Shown: positions 4,701 through 18,286 of the stretch, one piece after another
Numbering within the stretch: the stretch's first letter is position 1
How the letters are laid out: every line of letters starts with the position of its first letter
Assembly: GCF_964204645.1 (NCBI RefSeq)
Contig: NC_134031.1
Location: 16,861,307-16,925,306 of the forward strand
DNA: 64,000 bases
Reading direction: 5' to 3'
From: Tubulanus polymorphus
Taxonomy: Eukaryota > Nemertea > Palaeonemertea > Tubulaniformes > Tubulanidae
Made by a program: the position numbers and the translations under genes
Notes under the pieces: model-generated
The model's database searches: none
What the model saw: the letters and a program-made list of their open reading frames with translations, nothing else
What the model was told of the DNA's origin: nothing

Positions 4701-7700
4701 ATAATAACACCAGTCACTTGCCAGTTCAGGCTGGGTGAAAGATTGCTTATCAGGGGCCAGTTGCTCAAAAGTTGGCCGGTGGATAGTTGACATAGTGCCA
4801 ATTAAAAGTTCATCGTTACTATGGTATTTATAAGTGGGCTGTCTTAAATCAATTTTTTAGAAACTGGTCCCTGAACCAGAACTGAAATTTGTACAAAAAT
4901 TCTGTCCATTTGACCATTCATTTATGTATTTTCTCTTTGGATTTCACTTCATTCCAAGCAAGTATGCTGATGGGTTAGTAAGGGACATAAACCAATGAAT
5001 ATGATTATCATTTTGATGTTAAAGAAATTACACGAATAACTTGGAATGCTGTCAATGTTACCTATGTCATCATAGTTACCATATATAGATGATGCCTTTT
5101 TAAAAATAGCGTCGATCAAAGATCTTTTTTCAAAGCGTCCTTCGGTTGAAGGACTATTTGAGACGTAATTATTCACACTCAAATTCGGGTTTCTCTCAAT
5201 GGCGGGTGATTGAAATATTTCCCTATATTCTTGCATTTTAAAAGAGCCCTTCAAACCCTTGAAGAATATTATTGCGCTCGATCTCGGGCCTGCGTAAGTA
5301 TGAACGTGTTTTCATCGAGGTTTAAAACCACAAATTATATCCTCTACACAACAGTTGAATAATGTCGCACCATTGAAAAAAACCGTTTCGAGTTTATAAA
5401 ACGATATCGGCAAAAAAAATTGAGAACGAATTATGGGTGCGACTAAAGATGCCGACGCCAAAGACGACGGGCCAACTGAGGAAACCGGCCTCGTTAAAAA
5501 AGAATACAAGGGTATGTAGAAACGAAGTTTTGAAGTTTTAAATCGAGTTTCGTATGTCGGGTGACGCAAGTTAGACTCCTGCTTCGAGACACTGATTTCC
5601 TGCCTACTTTAACCACCGTTTTCATGAATAAGTTTTAACTATCCGTTGTTGCTGCGTTCTGTATTCTGGAACCCGATCGCATTGAGACTCGAGACCACAG
5701 CACGAAACCCTGCCTCACTAGCCCGAGTGCGCAGCTCCCATGCGCTGCTGAGATGATGTCATCATTAGCCAATCAGATATTCCATTTTATTTTCGCCCAG
5801 GTTTTTCAACTTAAGAGTTTTTCCGTAAAATTTGCCTCAGCGATTACACAATGAGCAATCTGATTGGCGCCGCAAGCAAACCTGTGCATGTACCTGCGCA
5901 CCCGGTCTAATGTGGCAGTGTTTCCTGCCGTGGCTGAGTCTAGTGACGCGATCAGGTTCCTCCTGAGAGAGGATGGGTTTCTGGTAGAACTTTTTCATGA
6001 CCCGTTAGCGGAACGTGGTCCCCACCGTTAGGTGATGGATATCATAACTTGGTTCTTCGTTTCACAGTTGTTTGTTGGTTCACGTTTGGCCCTACGGTTA
6101 ACGGTTGACTCCACTTTCCACGGAGCGGATTGCCTCGGTTTATCGCATTCCCATCGGACGAAATATTCAAATTTTCCTTCTCAAATTCATGTGGTATGAA
6201 ATATGAAAATCCATCTTTACACCATCTAGGCATAATGTATTGGTCCCAAGTGATCCGAGGCAAGCTTCTACTGTATTTGAAAAAACAAATTAAGAAATTC
6301 AAATTTTATGCCAATTCGAACCTAACTGGCAACTGAGGAACATGGGTCCAACTGAATGGGTTTTCTATTGGATTGACTTGTAGTAATACTGCACATTTTT
6401 GGTGGTTGGTTTCAATCGGTTTGACGATAACATCAATAACGTTTGTGTTCGATTTAATGAGAATAGCTTTTGATAGCTGTATTGGTTTAGCAATTAGAAT
6501 TGCTTATACCCGGAAAATAACGTCAACGATGCCTGATAGCACTGATTCATCGATAACAGCAATGAGCGGTTTTGTTTGTGTCAACGCGGAAGGTCGTTTA
6601 ATTCAGAATGGAATGAATGTACACGGTAGTAGTTGTCATGGTGAGATGTACACACCATCAACAAAACCGCGCTCCTACCCATGTACTCGATAAACCTAGA
6701 AAGGCAGCTGTTGACATTGAAGTCGTTTTCGTGATTCGTTTATGAGCATACTTACTTAACCACGGAAATAATTATGATATCTATACGATATATTTATGAT
6801 ATCTATATTGCCTAATTGATATATAAGTTACATATTTCTGGTTCACAGAAGAAGCGGAAAACCCAAAAAGCAATTGCCTCAGAAAAATGGCTTCCTTATT
6901 GATCTTTCATGTCACGTTTTTGATCGAAGTATATCATTTTTTCAAGTAGTAAGATCAGACACGCCTTAATTTCATGATTCAAAATGGTTGCTGACTTTAT
7001 GAGTAGTTCTGTTTATTATAGCAACCCGTGAAATGGTTGTTGATTATTTAGTTCTGTTTCTGTTGTTGACTATTTCTAGTTCTGTTTATGTGAAAGAAAG
7101 ACTTAAGTCTGCAATCTGCTAAACGCAAACATTTTGTAGTGTCTTCGTTTAAAGGGGATTCCTATTTCGCATTCCTGATATCTTCGCTGATATAATCTAG
7201 TCTGAACATAATGTGTTTGTTTTCCTGTTCTAGCGTATTTCCTGAATTGTAATTGCTTTCGTATAGGAGAATATAAAAACGTTCTATGGGTATAATTCAT
7301 TTTCCAAGAATGTAGAAATGGTCTCTATATCGTTTAGTGTTATATCGGTTGACTATATATGATGGTGCCTTTTCCTTCACTTTAGTGGTTATTTGAAATA
7401 CACAGCAACAAGCGACTATTAATGCATGCGCCTTTCATAAACACTATCGCGTCTTGGGTCAATTTTTTATGTGCATGAATTATTTACTATCAAGTTAGTA
7501 GTCAAATGCATATAAACTTATGGGACAAACATTCTGAATCGCTTTTGTTTATGTCCTGTAAGTTTATATGCTACGTTACTTCTGTTTTCTGGTTATCGGA
7601 AACAGCTAAAACGTTGTGGTTTCATTTTAATAAATTACTTTGTATAAAAATTCGAATTGTGGAACTTCTTCGATTAACTACCAAGTAATTTTGGTCTGGT

Positions 7701-10700
7701 GCCGGTTTCAATTACCAGTTTGTCAGTTAACCAGCCTACATGTACATGTACATGTAAATAACCATGTTACGCATTTATGTACGCGGCATTGCAATGGCAG
7801 GAATATCGATTAACTTCGGTACTTGTCAATTTTCCAGTTCAAGTCCCATCCATTAGCGGCATTCGCGAAGAAAATGTCGTTGAAGTGTCGATAATTCATT
7901 CAGCGATTAACACGTTGAAAAACCATATGCAAAATAAAACAGTTGTATCATAAAATTATTTTGATCAGAAATTTTTATCCGAAGTGAAAACTGCGAAAAC
8001 TCTTTATTTATGTATGTGCGTATATCTTTCAGGCGAACCTTTCAAGTATGACCCGACGTTCAAAGGGCCGATAAAAAACCGGTAAGGAATGAGTGAGCGA
8101 GCCGAATCAAAAACTAGTAACAACCAAGTGTCGCACCGTACACATGCATGACGAGCGGATTCGAGATTTGTTTAGGGACGCTCGATTTGATAAATGTCGA
8201 TTGATTTTTGGGAATGTTGATAAATCCCACAGCCCGCCGTGTCTTAAGTCAATCATTATGTAAAAATTGGCTGATATGTGTAGGTCTGTATGTTCAAATA
8301 TTTACTCGTTGATAAAATTCGGTGCGGTATTATTAAGCCAACGCTGTGATATTGAAATAAGGCTCGGGGTTTAATCAGCTATAGAGATATTCATTTGTTC
8401 AATTTCTTATCTGTTGACAAAAAATATAACTGCTTATCGAAAATGTACTAAAAAGATCAACTTTTAGATTCGAATTCTTCGATGAGATGATTGATGACTA
8501 TCCTGTACTTTAAATGAAACATTTAATTTGTCCGTTTTATATTTTGACTCCATGCTTGCGTATTAGTTATCGTATGTCTACAGACCAATATTAATTGATT
8601 AATCAATTTGATTAAAATTTAATTACAGATCATGTACGGATGTTATATGTCTGCTAGTGTTCCTTGCATTTCTCACCGGACTGGCCGCAATTGCTGGCAT
8701 TGGTACTTTATCATTAAAAAAAGCAAATCTATTATGTTTTCATCCTCTTTTTATATGCTTCATTCTCTCAAAGCCTCTCAAAGCAGTGTTATGTTCATCC
8801 TAGTGTACATCCTCCCCTGGCAGGAATTCGAACCTGATGGCATTGAGACTTGCCACCACCGTACGAAACCCTGCCACACTAGCCTCACTATTAGACAATC
8901 AGATATCCTGTTTTATTTTAGCCCGGGTTTTTCCATTTATAGTTTTTCCTTGAAATCTGCCTCAGCGATTATACAACGGGCAATCTGATTGGTACTGCAA
9001 GTTTTTTTGCGGTAAATCTGTGCATATACCTGCGCACCCGGTCTAGTGTGGTCAGAGTTTCGTGTCATGTCGTGGCTGAGTCTAACGATGCCATCAGGTT
9101 CAAATCGTTCCTGGGGACAAATTACCCATTTAACACATTAATACCCATTGAACAGTTTCTGAAAAATGAAAGTCCACTCCACATATGTTCACATTGAACT
9201 CTGTATTTGTCTATAGTCTAGACACAAGTGATGCTTGAGTTCAACATAAAAATCGTATGAAATCGATTTTTTCCATTTCAACATAGGCTGAACATGTCGT
9301 TACATAACATGTATTATATGCCTGTACCGGTACTATGTACGTATATGCTTCAACAGGAGACTCACTAACCTGTCGACTAAACCAGTAGTTACTGCATACT
9401 GATAAACTTTTTTGGGTTGCCAATTTCTCGACGAGCTAACACTGCTTTGAAAACTGCTCTCTGAAAAAAGCCGATCTTATCATCTTTATATCGATGAATA
9501 AATCTCACTTTAGAATACGTCCTCCCAAGGTTCACGGTCGGTTGATCAAAGTTGCATCCATTTTGTCACAGAGTCATTATCCGCTTACTTACGTTAAAAC
9601 TATCGCACCGATTCGAAATTTGCGTCCCACGAGACCAAAACTACATTGCAATGTTGTTTCCGTGATGGACTACACTTGTGATTTATGAATTAGACTCGTT
9701 TCAGTCCACCATCATAAGTTGTAGTTAATGTTCCCTTAGCTCAAATATGTATTACTTGCATGCAATTCCCCTCCCCCAGAATTTTTAGTAGCTGGTTTGC
9801 CGTGTCAGTATTTTGGTGTTTTGTGGTAAATCAACACAATACGTAGAAAGATGTATTTTGTTTAGTTTTTGTGGTGGGAACACATAGTGGGTATCAGAGT
9901 ATTGCACGCATTATTCGACCGGTCAGTACCAGGTTGACACCAGTCGATACCGGTCATTTCCAGTAGACTCCCGATAGTCAAAGCATTATTTATACATCTT
10001 TTCTTTATCCTCTTTTGCTTTTAGATCATGCACAGATATTATTTGCTGCCTTTTATTTTTTGTGTTCATTTTGGGTTTGGTAGCAGTAGCATTCCTCGGT
10101 AAGTTTGGCTGCAATCAGTGACTGGCCTAATGCTGTTGTAGCCACCACCACGACCACCAATTTGAACAACTCCATATTTGGTAATTTGTAGCCACGATCA
10201 CATGAGGGTTTTTACCCGGGCCTACCATTTACACTGGCGCCCAAAGGGTCTGTACCTGTTTGACATGGGCCTCATCTCGCCCGACCCAAAACACCGGCCA
10301 TTTTAACCCCATTCAAATCGTTTCCATGTGATAACGGCTTTCATAAAACATAAAAATAGTAAAGCTTTGCAGAAAACAGTAAGATATTTTCCTTAATTAG
10401 TCGCATGTTAAATGTCGTGGCGTTGAAATAAATTCATCGATTTATCATTTTCAAAAATTGGATGATTAAGAATTCATTGTTTCGCTTTCAGCATTCAGCA
10501 GGGGAGACCCAAAAATGTTACTGTACCCGACTGACTCTGAGGGCAATATTTGTGGTACTGGCAAGTTTACGTGAGTTTCGTACTAAATTTCAGCTTCGAT
10601 ACTGTATAAACCTCTTGCGGTTTCTTCAATGTCTGTTACGGTTTTCTTGAATTTCAGAGATCGGCCGAATTTGTTTTTCTTCGATTTATTGGCTTGTGCC

Positions 10701-13700
10701 CGTATGGGTCCGGCGGTCGCGATCAACGGATGTCCTACACCTCAGGTAACGCCGCGATAACACAAGTGTTTTTGACCTGGGTTGTATTTGGTCCATACCA
10801 GGTGTTAAATGAGCCTGTGCCTGTTTAACACAGGGTAAACAACGTCAGACCAGGCCCAGGTCACATTATTCCATATGAACGCTAAGTGGCTTGACTTGCT
10901 TGCCATAGTATCATTTTGATAGTATATTTCTATAACGAGTGTTGAGTGATTTGTACATGAATGCACTCATTGGGCATGGGCATGGCATAACTCGCATCTA
11001 ATCCCGGCTAGTTTAACGCGGGCAAAATCGCCTCCCTAATTTAAATTTCGATTTATTCATCATAAATCCAAAATATAAGATTGTGAATGAAGAAAAACAA
11101 CAATAACAACTAACAGACAAAAAACAAAAAAGATGTGCAATAAAAGAAAAATTATAAAAGGAGAGAGAGAAGTAATACAATGTCTAACATATACATACAA
11201 TATTATTTAAGTGATATTTACAAGCCCATAATATATAAATTTCGCTATGATCGTGGCTTATGGCACGATCATCGATAAACTGCCGAACACCGGGCCATTA
11301 ATTCTGATGTGATTTCTCATTTTCCGTCTTTTCTAGGTGTGCGTGAAATCGTGCCCTACGAATTATTGGACCTTTATACAAGACGAGGTGACAAACAATC
11401 GAAACAATTTAATCTGTTTGTACGACGTGGATCCGAAATCGGCGCAATATTCGTCGAAGGTAAGCGATTGCTGAATGCAATCATCGGCGAATCAACCGAT
11501 ACAAAATATGAATACGACGGGAAATGCATGGATTTGAAAGAGATTTACCAGATGACAGCGAAATAGAGTATGAAACTCAAGAAGTTATTATGACAATGCT
11601 CTAGGGTTGTTTATCATAAAAATTTGCGTTGTTATTCACACTGTTCTGTTTTTTCTATATTTCATACAGTCTTTGACACAGCTGGTTCAAGATAAATTGT
11701 GCGCTGGATATACTGTTAAAAGTGTACCAAGTACGTAAATCAATATCAATTATTATTCAAAAATTTTTAATTTCGAATTTCAAAAATTCTAGTATCATTT
11801 CGCTTAAAAATATTGTAACTCAACTGTGGAACTCCGGCTATAACCTATGTATCATTCGTGAGTGTTCTCTGTTTCAGTGGTTGGTCGATGTGTGCCGGCG
11901 ATATTTACCACTTTGCTGAACAAAACGCAAAAACTCGTCAGCCAGGTCGGCAACCAAAACTTTACCCTGACCGGTCCTAATAATGAAACTATCACTGGTA
12001 GTGAGCTCGAACAAGGATCAAAGTGAGCATTTCTCGATGAAACAAATATAAGCGTTGTAAGTGTATCAGTTTATAATTTGAGTTTGATGTTCTTTTAGGT
12101 ATCTGGCGATAATGATGAGCGCTATGGATGTAGCTCAGTCAGTGTTAGCTGATCTTGAAGCTTCCTGGTGGATGCTTATAGTGTAGGTTCTAACTCTAAC
12201 GAATTCGACCCTATCTGTCATTATCAGTGTATTAGCTGAATTGATACAGATATTTGATATTCTTCTCATATTCTTTTTTACAGTGGACTCGTCATATCTG
12301 CAATAATTGCTTTAATTTGGATTCTGATTATGAGGTGGATCGCTGGAGTCATGGTTTGGTTGTCGCTTATCTTGTTCATCGCGCTTTTCGCGTTCGGTAA
12401 GTTCATTGCAAACTTTTATATCTATATAAAGTTTTCTTTCGCTGATCCTGGGTGAGTTATTGTTCTTTTCACCAACAGGAACGTATTATGGTTTCAAGGA
12501 ATATGTTCGACTGAAGGACTCTGTCGGTTCGCAGGGAGCCCTCGAGTTTAAATTGAATCTATCGTACTATGCGGCGCGACAAGAAACCTGGTTAGCTATT
12601 GGTTAGTCTTCTGGCTCCAGTTCCACAGTTGTGAGTTACAATTAACTCCGTAATCAAATCTGAACTCACAACTGAGGAACTGGATCCAGTACTTTTAACT
12701 GGATTAGCTTGGATTTGATAATGATTTCGATAACGATCGTTAATTATTTCGCTTTTTCGTTTTTCAGGAATCATCTGTGCTGTGATTTTGGGAATCGTTT
12801 TGTTGATTCTTTTGATTTTACGCAACCGTATTCGAATTGCTATTTCTATTATTAAGGAAACGAGCAAGTGAGTAGAAAAATATCGCACACACATATCATC
12901 TGTAATCTCTCTGAAATACAACAGCTGGTTTTAAAGATTGGTATTACCTTTAACCTGGGGCTAATTCAATTCACTTTCTATTGAGTGAGCCCCTGGGTTA
13001 AAGGTAATACCAGTCTGTAAAACCGGTTCTAGTATAATACCACCAATTCCTGGTCGAAAAATAACTCCAAACCCCTGAAATCAAGTTTTAATGTCCTCTT
13101 TCTATATCCAACTTCAAATAATTATCTCTTACTTGGTTTTCACTTTTTACACATCAGCGGCACATGATGGTCATTATCTGAAATACCTATTTGTATTATG
13201 ATTTTATCCTTTGGTAGGCTTTTTGTACATATTCGCGCATACTTTGTACGAAGTGCTTGACAACCCTATTTTAGTTTACTTGATGTAACACCCTTGAGTA
13301 GTTGCGGAGCTTACAGTCGTTCATTATTTATTTGATATTTCTGTTCAGAGTAATTTCATATCCCTATCCAGACAGGTGAGAGATCCGTATATTCATGAAA
13401 TGTCTAGTTTCTTTCGTTAAAATCTTTTTTGGATGTTTATGCTTTAAAACAGATACCATGTATACATGTCCGACAGAAAGAACATCGTTTGTCCGACCAC
13501 ACTGATAAACTTCTAGGAGTCTCATTTTGAGGCTTTTCCACCATGTTTGTCTTTGTACGATGTATGTGTACATTTCAAATACAACGTGTTCGATCATTTT
13601 CGCATGTTTATTTCTACATGTTATGAATGGTTAGCTTTGATCGATATTATATATGGAAGCATGAATTTTCAACTTAATTCAATGACTAAATTTTCCTAAA

Positions 13701-16700
13701 CCACAGAAATCTTACTGGCATAAGATGTTGTTCATGACAGTCAACTTCCTGATAGATTCAAGATGGGAACAGTTTTGTTTCCAACAAAATGATCACTTGT
13801 TTACCCACCTTTAAAAAAATGTTTAAAACAGATGTTGCATACTGCAGAACTATAGAAATATGTAGCCTTTGTTCTTCTGAAATAAATTCAAGTACCGGTA
13901 CACATGAAACTAAACCTTTAGCAATGTTGCTTTCATTGGTGTGTCACCTAGCATGTTGAGAAACAAAATCTGAATTAGAAGCAGCGATTAGATTTAAACA
14001 TATTGCATGTAAATGAAATATTTGGTTTTATGTGGTAAATGTATGAACATATGGTTTTAGAAATAAAAGCAAATTCTCTTGATGAATCCTAGTTTAGAAA
14101 TTAAGTACTTAACATAGGAAGCCATTTACAAACTTTTTCTGTTCTTATTTGTCTATTACGATAATTTCAGAGCTGTTGGTAACATGATGTTCACTTTATT
14201 GTGGCCGTTGTTCCCATTTGTCCTTCAACTCGGAGTTTTTGGCTTGTGGGGAGCGATAACGATATTCTTGGCGTCGTCTGGTAAAGCTCAATCTAAAGCA
14301 AACGTCACGACTACTAATTCATCAGGAAATCCTGTATTCGACTTGATCGATTGTTCCACACTAGTATGTATCGGGTTTAGACACGGATGTCTGATGACTA
14401 TTTTCCAGTTTGTCGGTAGTCTAAAGAAAATGTGCTTTTACTTACATTTTAGCCAGCAAATTCATCGCAGCTGAAGTTTTGTCATTTTGTGAAATACGGC
14501 GGAAATGAGTATGTTGAAATCTGTTCAATTAAATTTTCTTAAAAAAAACCTACCAGTAACTAACTAATTTGGCTTGACTAATTTTTCCATTTGTAAATGA
14601 TGTTGTGATTCTAGTCCTGACTCAAGACAGTAAAAAATATTTACACATCTCTGCCTGCCAAAAATAATGTGTGGATATATTTAAACAGAATCAGAATAAG
14701 ATTTTGACACATATATGAAAAATGCTATGCCTATGTAACCGGCTGGTTGTTGTATCGGCAGGCTGGCTGGGGAACTAGCATTTACACCAGCGGTACAGGA
14801 TTCCATCCATCAGGAACAACAAGGCATTTACACCTTATATGTACAATCTTTATTGCATCCTGGAATGAGAATGATTATCATAACTTTACATAGTCTTTAT
14901 ATACAGAATCATGAGTATAATGTGAGAACTAGGTGATCAGAATCTTTCAATTTGTCTGATTCTTGATTTCGGAAATCTTTCAGGCTACACCTTACCGTAT
15001 AAGGCAGAGTCTACTAAGTACCCGCATTGATACATGGCCTCAAATCATTCAGTCATGATTATATCGTTATACTTGGTATCGAACTGTATTTTAGGTACAC
15101 GATTTATCTACAAATCTACAATCTGTTCATGTTGTTCTGGTTGATGAATTTCGTCGTCGCATTAGGTCAGATGACTTTAGCCGGAGCATTCGCCTCGTAT
15201 TACTGGGCATTCTCGAAACCAGCCGATATCCCCGCGTTCCCTCTCTCCGCATCATTTTGGAGATGTATTCGGTAGGACGGATAAAATATCACAGATCTAA
15301 AGTACCAGATAATTCTAATGATTCGTTCCACGTTGAAAACTTTTCTTAACCGTTTATAGATACCATCTCGGCTCTATTGCGTTTGGTTCATTGATTATCG
15401 CAATTATTCAATTGATACGTGCAATGCTTGAATACCTTGATCATAAGCTGAAAGGCTCGGAAAATCCAGTCGCAAAGTTTTTCTTGAAGTAAGTGTACAA
15501 TTTTGACATTTTTTTTATCGCAGTCGCGATAAAAGTTCTTTTAAATTAACGTGCCATATTTGATTTTAGGTGTTTGAAATGTTTCTTCTGGTGTCTTGAG
15601 AAGTTCATGAAATTCCTCAATAAGAATGCGTACATCTTGGTAAGTCAAGTTGAACGAAAAAATGAAAAAAATAAAAGTTGGTTGTCAAGAATGAAAAAAA
15701 CCACATTTTATTCACATTTTTCATATGCAATAATCTTCCTACTTCAGATTGCGGTATATGGTAAAAACTTTTGTACGTCAGCAAAGAATGCATTCTTTTT
15801 GATTTTGAGGAATATTGTAAGGTTTGTGTTGCTGACGGTTGTTTCTATAAAGAATGTAATTATGCGATACAAAGTATTTATTTGAGCATTTTGTCCTACA
15901 TTTAATTTTGTGTCAATTTTCAGGGTTGTGGTTATTGACAAAGTGACCGATTTTGTCATATTCATCGCGAAGCTAGTAGTGGTCGGAGCTACAAGTAAGT
16001 TAAACACGAACCTAGAAGTCTGAATTTTTATGATTTAATCCTAAATTCTTAAAGATTATCAACATTGTAAAAATCTTAAGTTTTTCAGTGGTTTTTCTAG
16101 AATCGCACAAACGGCCCTATTCTGTTGTTTTCACACAGTGTCAGCATTCAGAAATGTATATTTTATCGAGCACAAAGTTCACCACTAGTCGTGTTTATAT
16201 TATTTTCTCACGTACAGCTTGTTTGTTTATGCTGTTGCAAGGGACATTAAAAAAATATGAGTTTGTCTCGTCGGTAATTGATAATCTAAAAAATCCTGCG
16301 GGCATTATCGTTGTAAGTAATAGCATTGTTGTCGGCACCTGATCCTCATTTAGACGAGTCTTGTGATGTAGATAATCCCGATTTTATTATACCCAAAAGT
16401 TTTGGAGCATGGTTTGTTGGTTGCATGGTGTGAATAATTGATTAGAATCGACTCTTGCTTCGCAGATAATGCACTCACAAAATTTGCGCATCCGATCTTA
16501 TAGAAAGCAGTATTAGTGGACACAAAATGAATTCTAGAAAATTCAGTGTTGTCATAGATGAGAAATGCTTCGGTTATATGTATGAAAATATATTTATCCT
16601 GCTTATGCTATGTGTGAACAATCCCCCAGAATCTGTGAAAATTATTCAAATTCGCATGCGTTGATTTATCTATGTATTTTGCATGTGTTTTCAGCTGTAG

Positions 16701-17793
16701 CTGCGTTTTTCTTCTTCGACGGGCGAATTCCGTTTATCAGTAATTATTCGCCTAACCTACAGTACAACCTAGTCCCAGTTATCGTAAGTACAACCTATGC
16801 TTCGCGCAGAGCCAGTTCCGCACAGTTACGAATACAAATTCCTCCTCAAAGTTGAATAATGAAAATGAACTATCGGTGATTATAACCTCCCCAGTTTTCC
16901 CCATTGCTGTGGAATTGGATCTAGATTGTAAATTGAATTTAAACATTGATGCTTTACGCTTGAAAAGCCACAAGACCAAAACATTCTGTGTGACCTTATT
17001 TCATCCTTCCTTATTTGTTGGTTCTTAATCGGTACCTCAAACTCAACTTGTAGAAAGCTGTGGTTAGTAGTGGGTCAGTGAGCTAATATTTTACTAAATT
17101 TCCTCATGATGTAATAATATCTTGGAATCGTTTAAGCTATTTACATATCATTCTTCCAAGGTAATATGAACCAGTTGGTACTGAGTAGGAAATCATTTTA
17201 GCATTTTAGTGTTCGAATAATATGTTTGGATTTTCTAGGTAATCGCTATTGGATCATACATTATAGCCGCCTGCTTCTTCAGTGTTTATAACATGGGAGT
17301 GGATACTTTATTCTTATGTTTCCGTAAGTACTACGATACTACAGTAGAACCAGCTTAATTTGGCTCATTTGGGAAAAACCAAATTCATCCCGTTTGATAT
17401 ACGGGATCCAGTTCATAGTTCTGAGTTTAATTTGTCTCTTTGAGTTAGAACATCGAAAATGAACTGATTTCAACTCAAGAGTTAACTCTAACTCACAACT
17501 GTGGAACCGGAACCTGACATAAGATCAACATCCAGTTTAAACCTGTTCAAATTGAGTTGGTTTCACTACATTATTATTTTCATGGAAATTGATTTGAATT
17601 GAAAACAGGAACTTTTATTCGGAGTGACAGTTTAATGGTATGGGTTTTTTCCATAATTTCAGTGGAAGATTTGGAGCGACATGACGGCTCGCCCGAGAAA
17701 CCGTACTACATGTCGAAGGAGCTGATGAGAATTCTCGGCAAGAAAAACAAGAAACCGAAAGCGACTGAAAAAGAGGCGGAGAAAGATGGCTAA
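1684..17793 (+). CDS. SLC44A2: Choline transporter-like protein (SLC44 family, CTL2/4/5 type)
   Basis: Predicted plasma- or mitochondrial-membrane choline/ethanolamine transporter. Exons: alternative firsts 1684-1726 or 5433-5511; 8033-8081; 8629-8702 or 10025-10098; 10492-10570; 10658-10745; 11337-11459; 11670-11730; 11878-12022; 12099-12182; 12284-12396; 12479-12601; 12768-12867; 14171-14363; 14453-14508; 15095-15271; 15360-15488; 15570-15639; 15748-15821; 15924-15994; 16695-16783; 17239-17323; 17663-17793. All junctions keep frame, giving 730 aa (proximal start) or 718 aa (distal), against 706 in human CTL2. Seen: [17 protein letters not shown] before TM1, a cysteine-rich extracellular loop with three N-glycosylation sequons (NKT, NFT, NET, about residues 195-225), ten hydrophobic helices, the conserved [20 protein letters not shown] and [15 protein letters not shown] blocks, and a C-tail beginning [18 protein letters not shown]. 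Membership in the CTL2/4/5 branch is clear; one-to-one orthology with human SLC44A2 is inferred. A poly(A) signal lies at 19218. Confidence 0.95.
1860..1981. repeat. Near-perfect 120-bp palindrome
   Basis: Arms 1860-1919 and 1922-1981 are reverse complements of about 60 bp with one mismatch (1906/1935) and essentially no spacer; the centre is AT-rich, TATATAAAAAAG followed by its complement. It lies 134 bp inside the first CTL intron. It could be a young foldback transposon or a hairpin-RNA locus. No target-site duplication is obvious. Confidence 0.8.
2789..3122. repeat. Dispersed repeat with GGGGCGGAT-type ends (copy 1)
   Basis: The left end reads CAAGGGCGGATTTTGG and the right end, read inward, GGGCGGCGCGGCTCTAGG. 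Together with 18046-18286 and 27369-27562 this forms a three-copy family whose best copy ends CAGGGGCGGATYTAGG, resembling hAT-type non-autonomous elements. No ORF. Confidence 0.5.
4318..4380 (+). repeat. Terminus of a pogo/Tigger-like MITE
   Basis: TACAGTAAACCTCGTCTTAC followed by CAGACAAACTGGGACC matches the ends of the related copies at 17337, 19409, 35284 and 52545. Termini of the form TA-CAGTARAACC are typical of Tc1/mariner-pogo elements with a TA target. The opposite end was not found, so this copy is probably truncated. Confidence 0.4.
5433..5511 (+). CDS. SLC44A2: CTL proximal alternative first coding exon
   Basis: The ATG at 5433 starts [20 protein letters not shown]... (26 codons plus one base) and ends at a strong GTATGT donor. 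It joins the exon at 8033 in phase. The N-terminus is charged and cytosolic, unlike the MGCC version. The ATG context (GAATTATGG) has G at +4. It lies 3.7 kb downstream of the distal first exon, implying its own promoter. Confidence 0.75.
5666..5964. repeat. ~290-bp inverted-repeat element (copy 1)
   Basis: This aligns along its length with 8820-9114 (shared blocks GCCTCAGCGATTA, GCAATCTGATTGG, CCTGCGCACCCGGTCTA, GTGGCTGAGTCTA). The ends are inverted repeats around CCTGATGGCATTGAGACT. The copy is diverged (CCCGATCGC at the left end). It sits about 150 bp downstream of the proximal CTL first exon. Confidence 0.7.
8629..8702 (+). CDS. SLC44A2: CTL TM1 exon, version a (mutually exclusive)
   Basis: A 74-nt exon between TTACAG and GTACTT encoding (R)[17 protein letters not shown] and the rest of the first helix. 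It has the same length and the same start and end phases as 10025-10098, and the encoded peptides align without gaps. Including both, or neither, would shift frame, so exactly one must be used. This version departs further from the family consensus (which has SCTDIICC). Confidence 0.8.
8820..9114. repeat. ~290-bp inverted-repeat element (copy 2)
   Basis: The better-preserved copy. The left end CAGGAATTCGAACCTGATGG and the right end CCATCAGGTTCAAATCGTTC are inverted repeats; read on the + strand, the right end has GTGGCTGAGTC then GGTTCAAATC, resembling tRNA A and B boxes (spacing about 24 nt, shorter than a true tRNA). It could be a tRNA-derived or foldback element. Confidence 0.7.
10025..10098 (+). 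CDS. SLC44A2: CTL TM1 exon, version b (mutually exclusive)
   Basis: A 74-nt exon after TTTTAG, ending at GTAAGT, encoding (R)[17 protein letters not shown] and the remainder of TM1. It is the consensus-like version and joins directly to the exon at 10492 ([19 protein letters not shown]). The two versions share nucleotide identity at their 5' ends (ATCATGYACRGATRTTAT), the mark of tandem exon duplication. Confidence 0.85.
12611..12689. repeat. Foldback family GATCCAGTTCCACAGTTGTGAG, copy 1
   Basis: The left arm CTCCAGTTCCACAGTTGTGA and the right arm (read inward) TGGATCCAGTTCCTCAGTTG form one hairpin. It begins 9 bp after the 5' splice site of the CTL exon ending at 12601, and the host intron is only 166 bp, so it makes up about half of it. 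Other copies: 17404-17515, 52651-52770, 56011-56120. Confidence 0.75.
12920..13029. repeat. Foldback element in a CTL intron
   Basis: Arms of about 40 bp: TTGGTATTACCTTTAACCTG (left) and the complementary TTAAAGGTAATACCAGTCTG (right), with a short central spacer. It lies in the 1.3-kb intron 12868-14170. No other copy was noticed. The rest of that intron shows nothing recognisable. Confidence 0.7.
17337..17568. repeat. Pogo-like MITE with a nested foldback element
   Basis: The outer ends are ACAGTAGAACCAGCTTAATT and, read inward from the right, TGTAGTGAAACCAACTCAAT. The interior 17404-17515 is a copy of the GATCCAGTTCCACAG foldback family. It lies in the last CTL intron. The same nesting recurs at 52545-53071. 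Confidence 0.6.
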
Positions 17794-18045
17794 ATGATAT
17801 AAACCTCGATATAAGCATGAAATGACTATAAACTAGATAGAAGGACACCAACTGAACACTGTTGAATAGCTGTACTTAGAGTTCACTGTGTGTCTTTCTG
17901 TGATTTAAACCGGGGACTGTTTACCCGACTGTAGTATATATTAGTGTTCACTTACGAAGTACCCGATGATACATGAAGAATATCTCCGCTGTGCTTTGTC
18001 CAAGAAAAGCAATCTTCTAGAATTCACTTGGGTTCATGATAATAT

Positions 18046-18286
18046 CAGGGGCGGATTTAGGGGGTGGTTTCCGGGTCAGGACCCCTGCTTTCCCACTGAG
18101 GTTGCCCTTTTTGGCAAGACAAGGATAATTAAAAACTGCAAATTTGACACTCATCCTTTCAGAAATTGCATATTTTCAGATGTATTTCCTCATGAAATAT
18201 CTACGACCGAGGGGAGTCCCCGCTAGTTTTCTATGACTTTTTTTTTCTGGACCCCGGAATTTCCAATATTCCTAGATCCGCCCCTG
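18046..18286. mobile_element. hAT-like non-autonomous element (copy 2, best preserved)
   Basis: The ends are CAGGGGCGGATTTAGGGG and, read inward from the right, CAGGGGCGGATCTAGGAAT. Both sides are flanked by AATAT (18041-18045 and 18287-18291), a short target-site duplication. There is no transposase ORF. The CAGGGGCGG terminus resembles hAT ends, although a classical hAT duplication is 8 bp. Confidence 0.65.

Follow-up and report, generated by a model that had tools for sequence, protein, structure and literature searches.

Two homologous TM1 exons, predicted to be spliced in a mutually exclusive manner, in a choline transporter-like (SLC44) gene of Tubulanus polymorphus

An SLC44 (choline transporter-like) gene of Tubulanus polymorphus carries two neighbouring 74-nt exons, here called 3A and 3B, that each encode a first transmembrane helix (TM1). 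From their frame, splice sites and homology, we consider it likely that tandem exon duplication gave rise to alternative TM1 exons, and that these are spliced in a mutually exclusive manner. Homologous mutually exclusive exons are a well-described kind of exon pair and are common in membrane proteins (PMC9741552, PMC5740500).

The host gene and the TM1 exon pair

The window, meaning the whole 64-kb stretch of DNA that was analysed (C7:16861307-16925306 of a 268-Mb genome), contains the gene on the plus strand at about 5433-17793. The translated exons matched PF04515 over the full profile (positions 1-326, E 1.1e-107) as well as two human CTL1 chains, 7wwb and 9qu3 (E about 1e-72), and alignment to these two chains revealed TM1, then the extracellular domain, then the remaining helices, the order found in SLC44 proteins. 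Based on the N-terminal motif and the overall sequence, we take the gene to be CTL2-type. Scans of viral and prokaryote collections gave no relatives of the gene, which is expected given its animal origin. The gene model has the following parts, all on the plus strand.

5433-5511, plus strand: coding exon E1, which holds the start (gene model)
8033-8081, plus strand: exon E2, the common upstream partner, with donor CCG|GTAAGG (gene model, splice-site scoring)
8629-8702, plus strand: alternative TM1 exon 3A, 74 nt (frame, splice sites, homology scan)
8703-10024, plus strand: intron between 3A and 3B, 1322 nt (splice-site analysis)
10025-10098, plus strand: alternative TM1 exon 3B, 74 nt (frame, splice sites, homology scan)
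10492-10570, plus strand: exon E4, the common downstream partner, with acceptor ..cag|CATTCA (gene model)
10658-10745, plus strand: exon E5 (gene model)
11337-11459, plus strand: exon E6 (gene model)
11670-11730, plus strand: exon E7 (gene model)
11878-12022, plus strand: exon E8 (gene model)
12099-12182, plus strand: exon E9 (gene model)
12284-12396, plus strand: exon E10 (gene model)
12479-12601, plus strand: exon E11 (gene model)
12768-12867, plus strand: exon E12 (gene model)
from about 14170, plus strand: exon E13, with the last coding exon running to 17793 and borders past E12 approximate
10658-17793, plus strand: remainder of the gene, with the PF04515 domain (profile match)

The sequence-only reading had placed two 74-nt exons of the same phase at 8629-8702 and 10025-10098 and assigned both to TM1. 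These positions proved exact to the base, and 3A and 3B each give a 24-residue helix peptide. AG stands directly before each exon and GT directly after it, and each fits the phase of E2 and E4, such that either one completes the split R codon from E2 and leaves one base for E4. As adjacent internal exons of the same length and phase with proper splice sites, they have the anatomy of a mutually exclusive homologous exon pair. Joining 3A to 3B leads to a stop at codon 87, while skipping both leads to a stop at codon 57, within E4. This agrees with the earlier argument that, at 74 nt, using both exons or neither breaks the frame, and the protein therefore requires exactly one of 3A and 3B.

The stops could also mean that the pair serves mainly as an expression switch, in which regulated production of unproductive transcripts, containing both exons or neither, reduces protein levels via nonsense-mediated decay. 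The stops at codons 87 and 57 are early, with many junctions downstream, and U2AF1, with twin 67-nt exons and decay-prone products when both or neither are used, provides a precedent (PMC5224494). A poison exon alone, however, would leave the TM1-like protein sequence of 3A unexplained, and we regard a role mainly as a switch as improbable. Such a switch could also coexist with exclusive splicing.

Origin, selection and splice sites of 3A and 3B

All AG-N74-GT segments with an open frame across the 64 kb were scored against 3B using BLOSUM62. The score of 3A was 77. The runner-up on the plus strand reached 5, the best minus-strand segment reached 13, and the maximum over 60 simulated 64-kb sequences was 19, ruling out a chance open frame as the source of 3A. 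The two peptides share 13 of 24 residues (18 of 24 positive), and the exons are 57% identical in nucleotides, with 10, 5 and 17 differences at codon positions 1, 2 and 3, a dN of 0.34 and saturated dS. In simulations that let one copy or the other diverge neutrally to 57% identity, 0 of 20,000 runs kept an open frame together with a protein similarity as high as that observed. The saturated silent sites together with these simulations indicate that the duplication is old and that selection on the protein maintained both exons afterwards. Both 3A and 3B were coding for protein during most of the period since that duplication, although one of them may have been lost very recently.

Among 12 exons tested, the TM1 pair was the sole duplicated exon, and, apart from the single TM1 exon in each paralogue, neither the gene nor the genome showed another close copy of 3A or 3B. 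The paralogues are two more SLC44 genes detected by a genome search, each on C2 (C2:28014500-28029000 and C2:4655800-4668500). Both are CTL1-like in TM1 (KKRSCTDII.. and KKRSCRDVP..) and have a single TM1 exon each, with the next intron at a different position, after GGM inside TM1; a TM1 duplication inherited by the paralogues was thus not seen. The border between E2 and the TM1 exon falls in the codon for the R of ..YNR, and we take the exon 2/3 border of mouse Slc44a2 to lie in the same codon, matching it through the N-terminus of that protein. The shared border suggests that a separate TM1 exon is old. In mouse Slc44a2, exons 1 and 2 together with the opening residue of exon 3 account for the first 29 residues (PMC4636594).

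The splice sites of the two exons differ in strength. With a simple position-weight score, for which the ranking alone is trustworthy, the 3A donor (TTG|GTACTT) was the weakest among the introns scored (-2.6 bits, compared with 0.1 to 7.3 for the others). The polypyrimidine tract before the 3A acceptor was likewise the weakest among these introns (8/16). In contrast, the 3B sites are strong, with donor TCG|GTAAGT and a tract of 14/16 pyrimidines. The combination of weak 3A sites and consensus 3B sites suggests that 3B is probably the default exon and 3A the regulated form.

The weak sites of 3A are also consistent with an exon that is decaying or seldom used, which counts against the exclusive-splicing reading. 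Under this alternative, 3B would be the constitutive TM1 exon, while 3A would be a relic, or very rarely used, and recently released from selection. In addition to the low donor score and few pyrimidines, 3B is nearer than 3A to the TM1 of human CTL2 (52% vs 41%). Nevertheless, 3A retains intact AG and GT as well as its length and phase, and it still encodes a hydrophobic helix free of stops at a nucleotide identity of 57% to 3B, with silent sites saturated. In exclusive exon pairs, moreover, the regulated exon usually has weak sites. Since no neutral run resembled the 3A/3B pair, a long-neutral relic is ruled out; the same simulations are compatible with a recent loss, which sets a limit on the exclusive-splicing reading. 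Overall, we find it unlikely that 3A is a relic or very rarely used. The record of such predictions in Drosophila is counted in favour of exclusive splicing of 3A and 3B: pairs with these features are mostly real according to the authors, with annotation already in place for 26 of the 65 internal exons predicted, and look-alike but non-exclusive exons were seen in 0.35% of X-linked genes (PMC3228551).

Candidate splicing mode and intronic elements

The 3A-3B intron (1322 nt) exceeds the length at which steric exclusion could act, and all sites have a U2-type GT-AG look, arguing against U2/U12 incompatibility. Another means of enforcing the choice would be competing intronic RNA structures of the docking/selector kind, similar to insect Dscam, and the sequence-only reading had proposed looking for these between E2 and E4. 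One duplex, between 9033-9092 in the 3A-3B intron and 10189-10248 in the 3B-E4 intron (-41.7 kcal/mol), would loop out 3B. It is marginal given that three intron pairs were tested; none of 25 shuffles in a first test and 1 of 100 in a second were equally stable. The other two pairs resembled shuffles, no repeated selector was seen in the introns, and one arm of the duplex lies within a dispersed MITE-like element. The search thus gave no convincing signal, and we consider docking/selector control of the 3A/3B choice very unlikely. The element containing the duplex arm is as follows.

8826-9105, plus strand: interspersed repeat of MITE-like type, carrying terminal inverted repeats of 18 nt (94%), inside the 3A-3B intron

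A second copy of this repeat is located at about 5665-5960 in direct orientation, 75-92% identical by segment to 8826-9105. Genome-wide, 1643 candidates were raised, and all 40 that were scored matched, spread over 12 contigs. The repeat at 8826-9105 is probably incidental to the exon pair. Other repeats were noted in and near the gene. An intronic inverted repeat at 12610-12720 (27 nt, 93%, 25-nt loop) matches a second place at 17375-17517, and another intronic one is present at 12916-13035 (45-nt pair, 82%, 30-nt loop); the three sites probably represent another short repeat family. The region 3´ of the gene at 17950-18226 translates to SGADLGGGFRVRTPAFPLRLPF.., a sequence similar to translated dispersed repeats in other animal genomes.

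For mutually exclusive splicing of 3A and 3B, we suggest the following model. Tandem duplication of the TM1 exon in a CTL2-type SLC44 gene would have produced 3A and 3B, with 3B, given its consensus splice sites, used by default. Use of 3A would depend on an activator present in particular tissues or stages, or on 3B being repressed, and the occasional transcripts with both exons or neither would be cleared by nonsense-mediated decay. In this model, exclusivity would rest on competition between splice sites plus quality control of the frame, with no role for steric hindrance or for an evident docking/selector structure.

Predicted effect of the TM1 swap and comparison with known systems

The cytosolic-side start of TM1, SCTD-[VI]-IC, is kept between 3A and 3B, while the membrane-embedded half differs, being bulky and aromatic in 3B and rich in small residues in 3A. 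Over 22 positions, 3B has five aromatics and four small residues, whereas 3A has three aromatics and eight small residues. Swapping TM1 had been suggested to change substrate preference. This idea is weakened by the structure of human CTL1, in which the putative pocket residues are on M6, M8, M9 and M10, and the rear side has a hydrophobic pocket or groove, built from M1, M5 and M6, with lipid- or sterol-like densities (PMC13160678). With TM1 outside the pocket and lining the groove, the swap is likelier to alter lipid or sterol contact, helix packing, stability or sorting than the substrate pocket.

The authors of the CTL1 structure argue for a non-transport role, and choline transport by SLC44 proteins is disputed (PMC13160678), which makes a natural TM1 switch away from the central pocket of interest. 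More tentatively, a conserved, tissue-regulated TM1 switch in CTL2-type SLC44 genes might alter the M1/M5/M6 groove and thereby tune a non-transport role, a proposal that we consider possible but doubtful. If true, a switch restricted to TM1 would amount to a built-in experiment on the function of the putative lipid/sterol groove.

Within the same type of gene, mammalian SLC44A2 has P1 and P2 isoforms that differ near the N-terminus, before TM1, and weak choline uptake has been reported for P2 and not P1 (PMC4636594). Unlike 3A and 3B, these isoforms arise from alternative first exons, not duplicated internal exons, and TM1 is unchanged. Drosophila CG11880, which is listed in a table of TDP-43-dependent splicing, was set aside as a precedent, as only a changed splicing index is given for it and the term "mutually exclusive" there refers to another gene (PMC3385985).

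The frame logic matches that of exons Ab and 3 of U2AF1, which are likewise of equal length and not divisible by three; including both or neither similarly gives stops and decay, and one exon has poorer splice sites (PMC5224494). However, U2AF1 is a soluble splicing factor with exons far less diverged than 3A and 3B, and there usage favours the exon whose sites are poorer (PMC5224494), a caution for taking 3B as the default. Insect Dscam1, in which docking and selector RNA elements act, likewise places in each mRNA a single member of a set of homologous exons, but here there are two exons only and no convincing paired structure.

In human SLC25A3 and SLC39A14, the exclusive exons swap membrane-helix segments. 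As with 3A and 3B, these are homologous neighbouring exons with one used per mRNA (PMC5740500). SLC25A3 and SLC39A14 differ in belonging to other families and in that their splicing was shown by RNA and disease genetics, whereas it is predicted here. In line with the earlier statement that no such case was known for SLC44, no report was found in the literature searched, which was covered in part, and the gene described here would join the solute-carrier genes in which exons for a helix can be exchanged.
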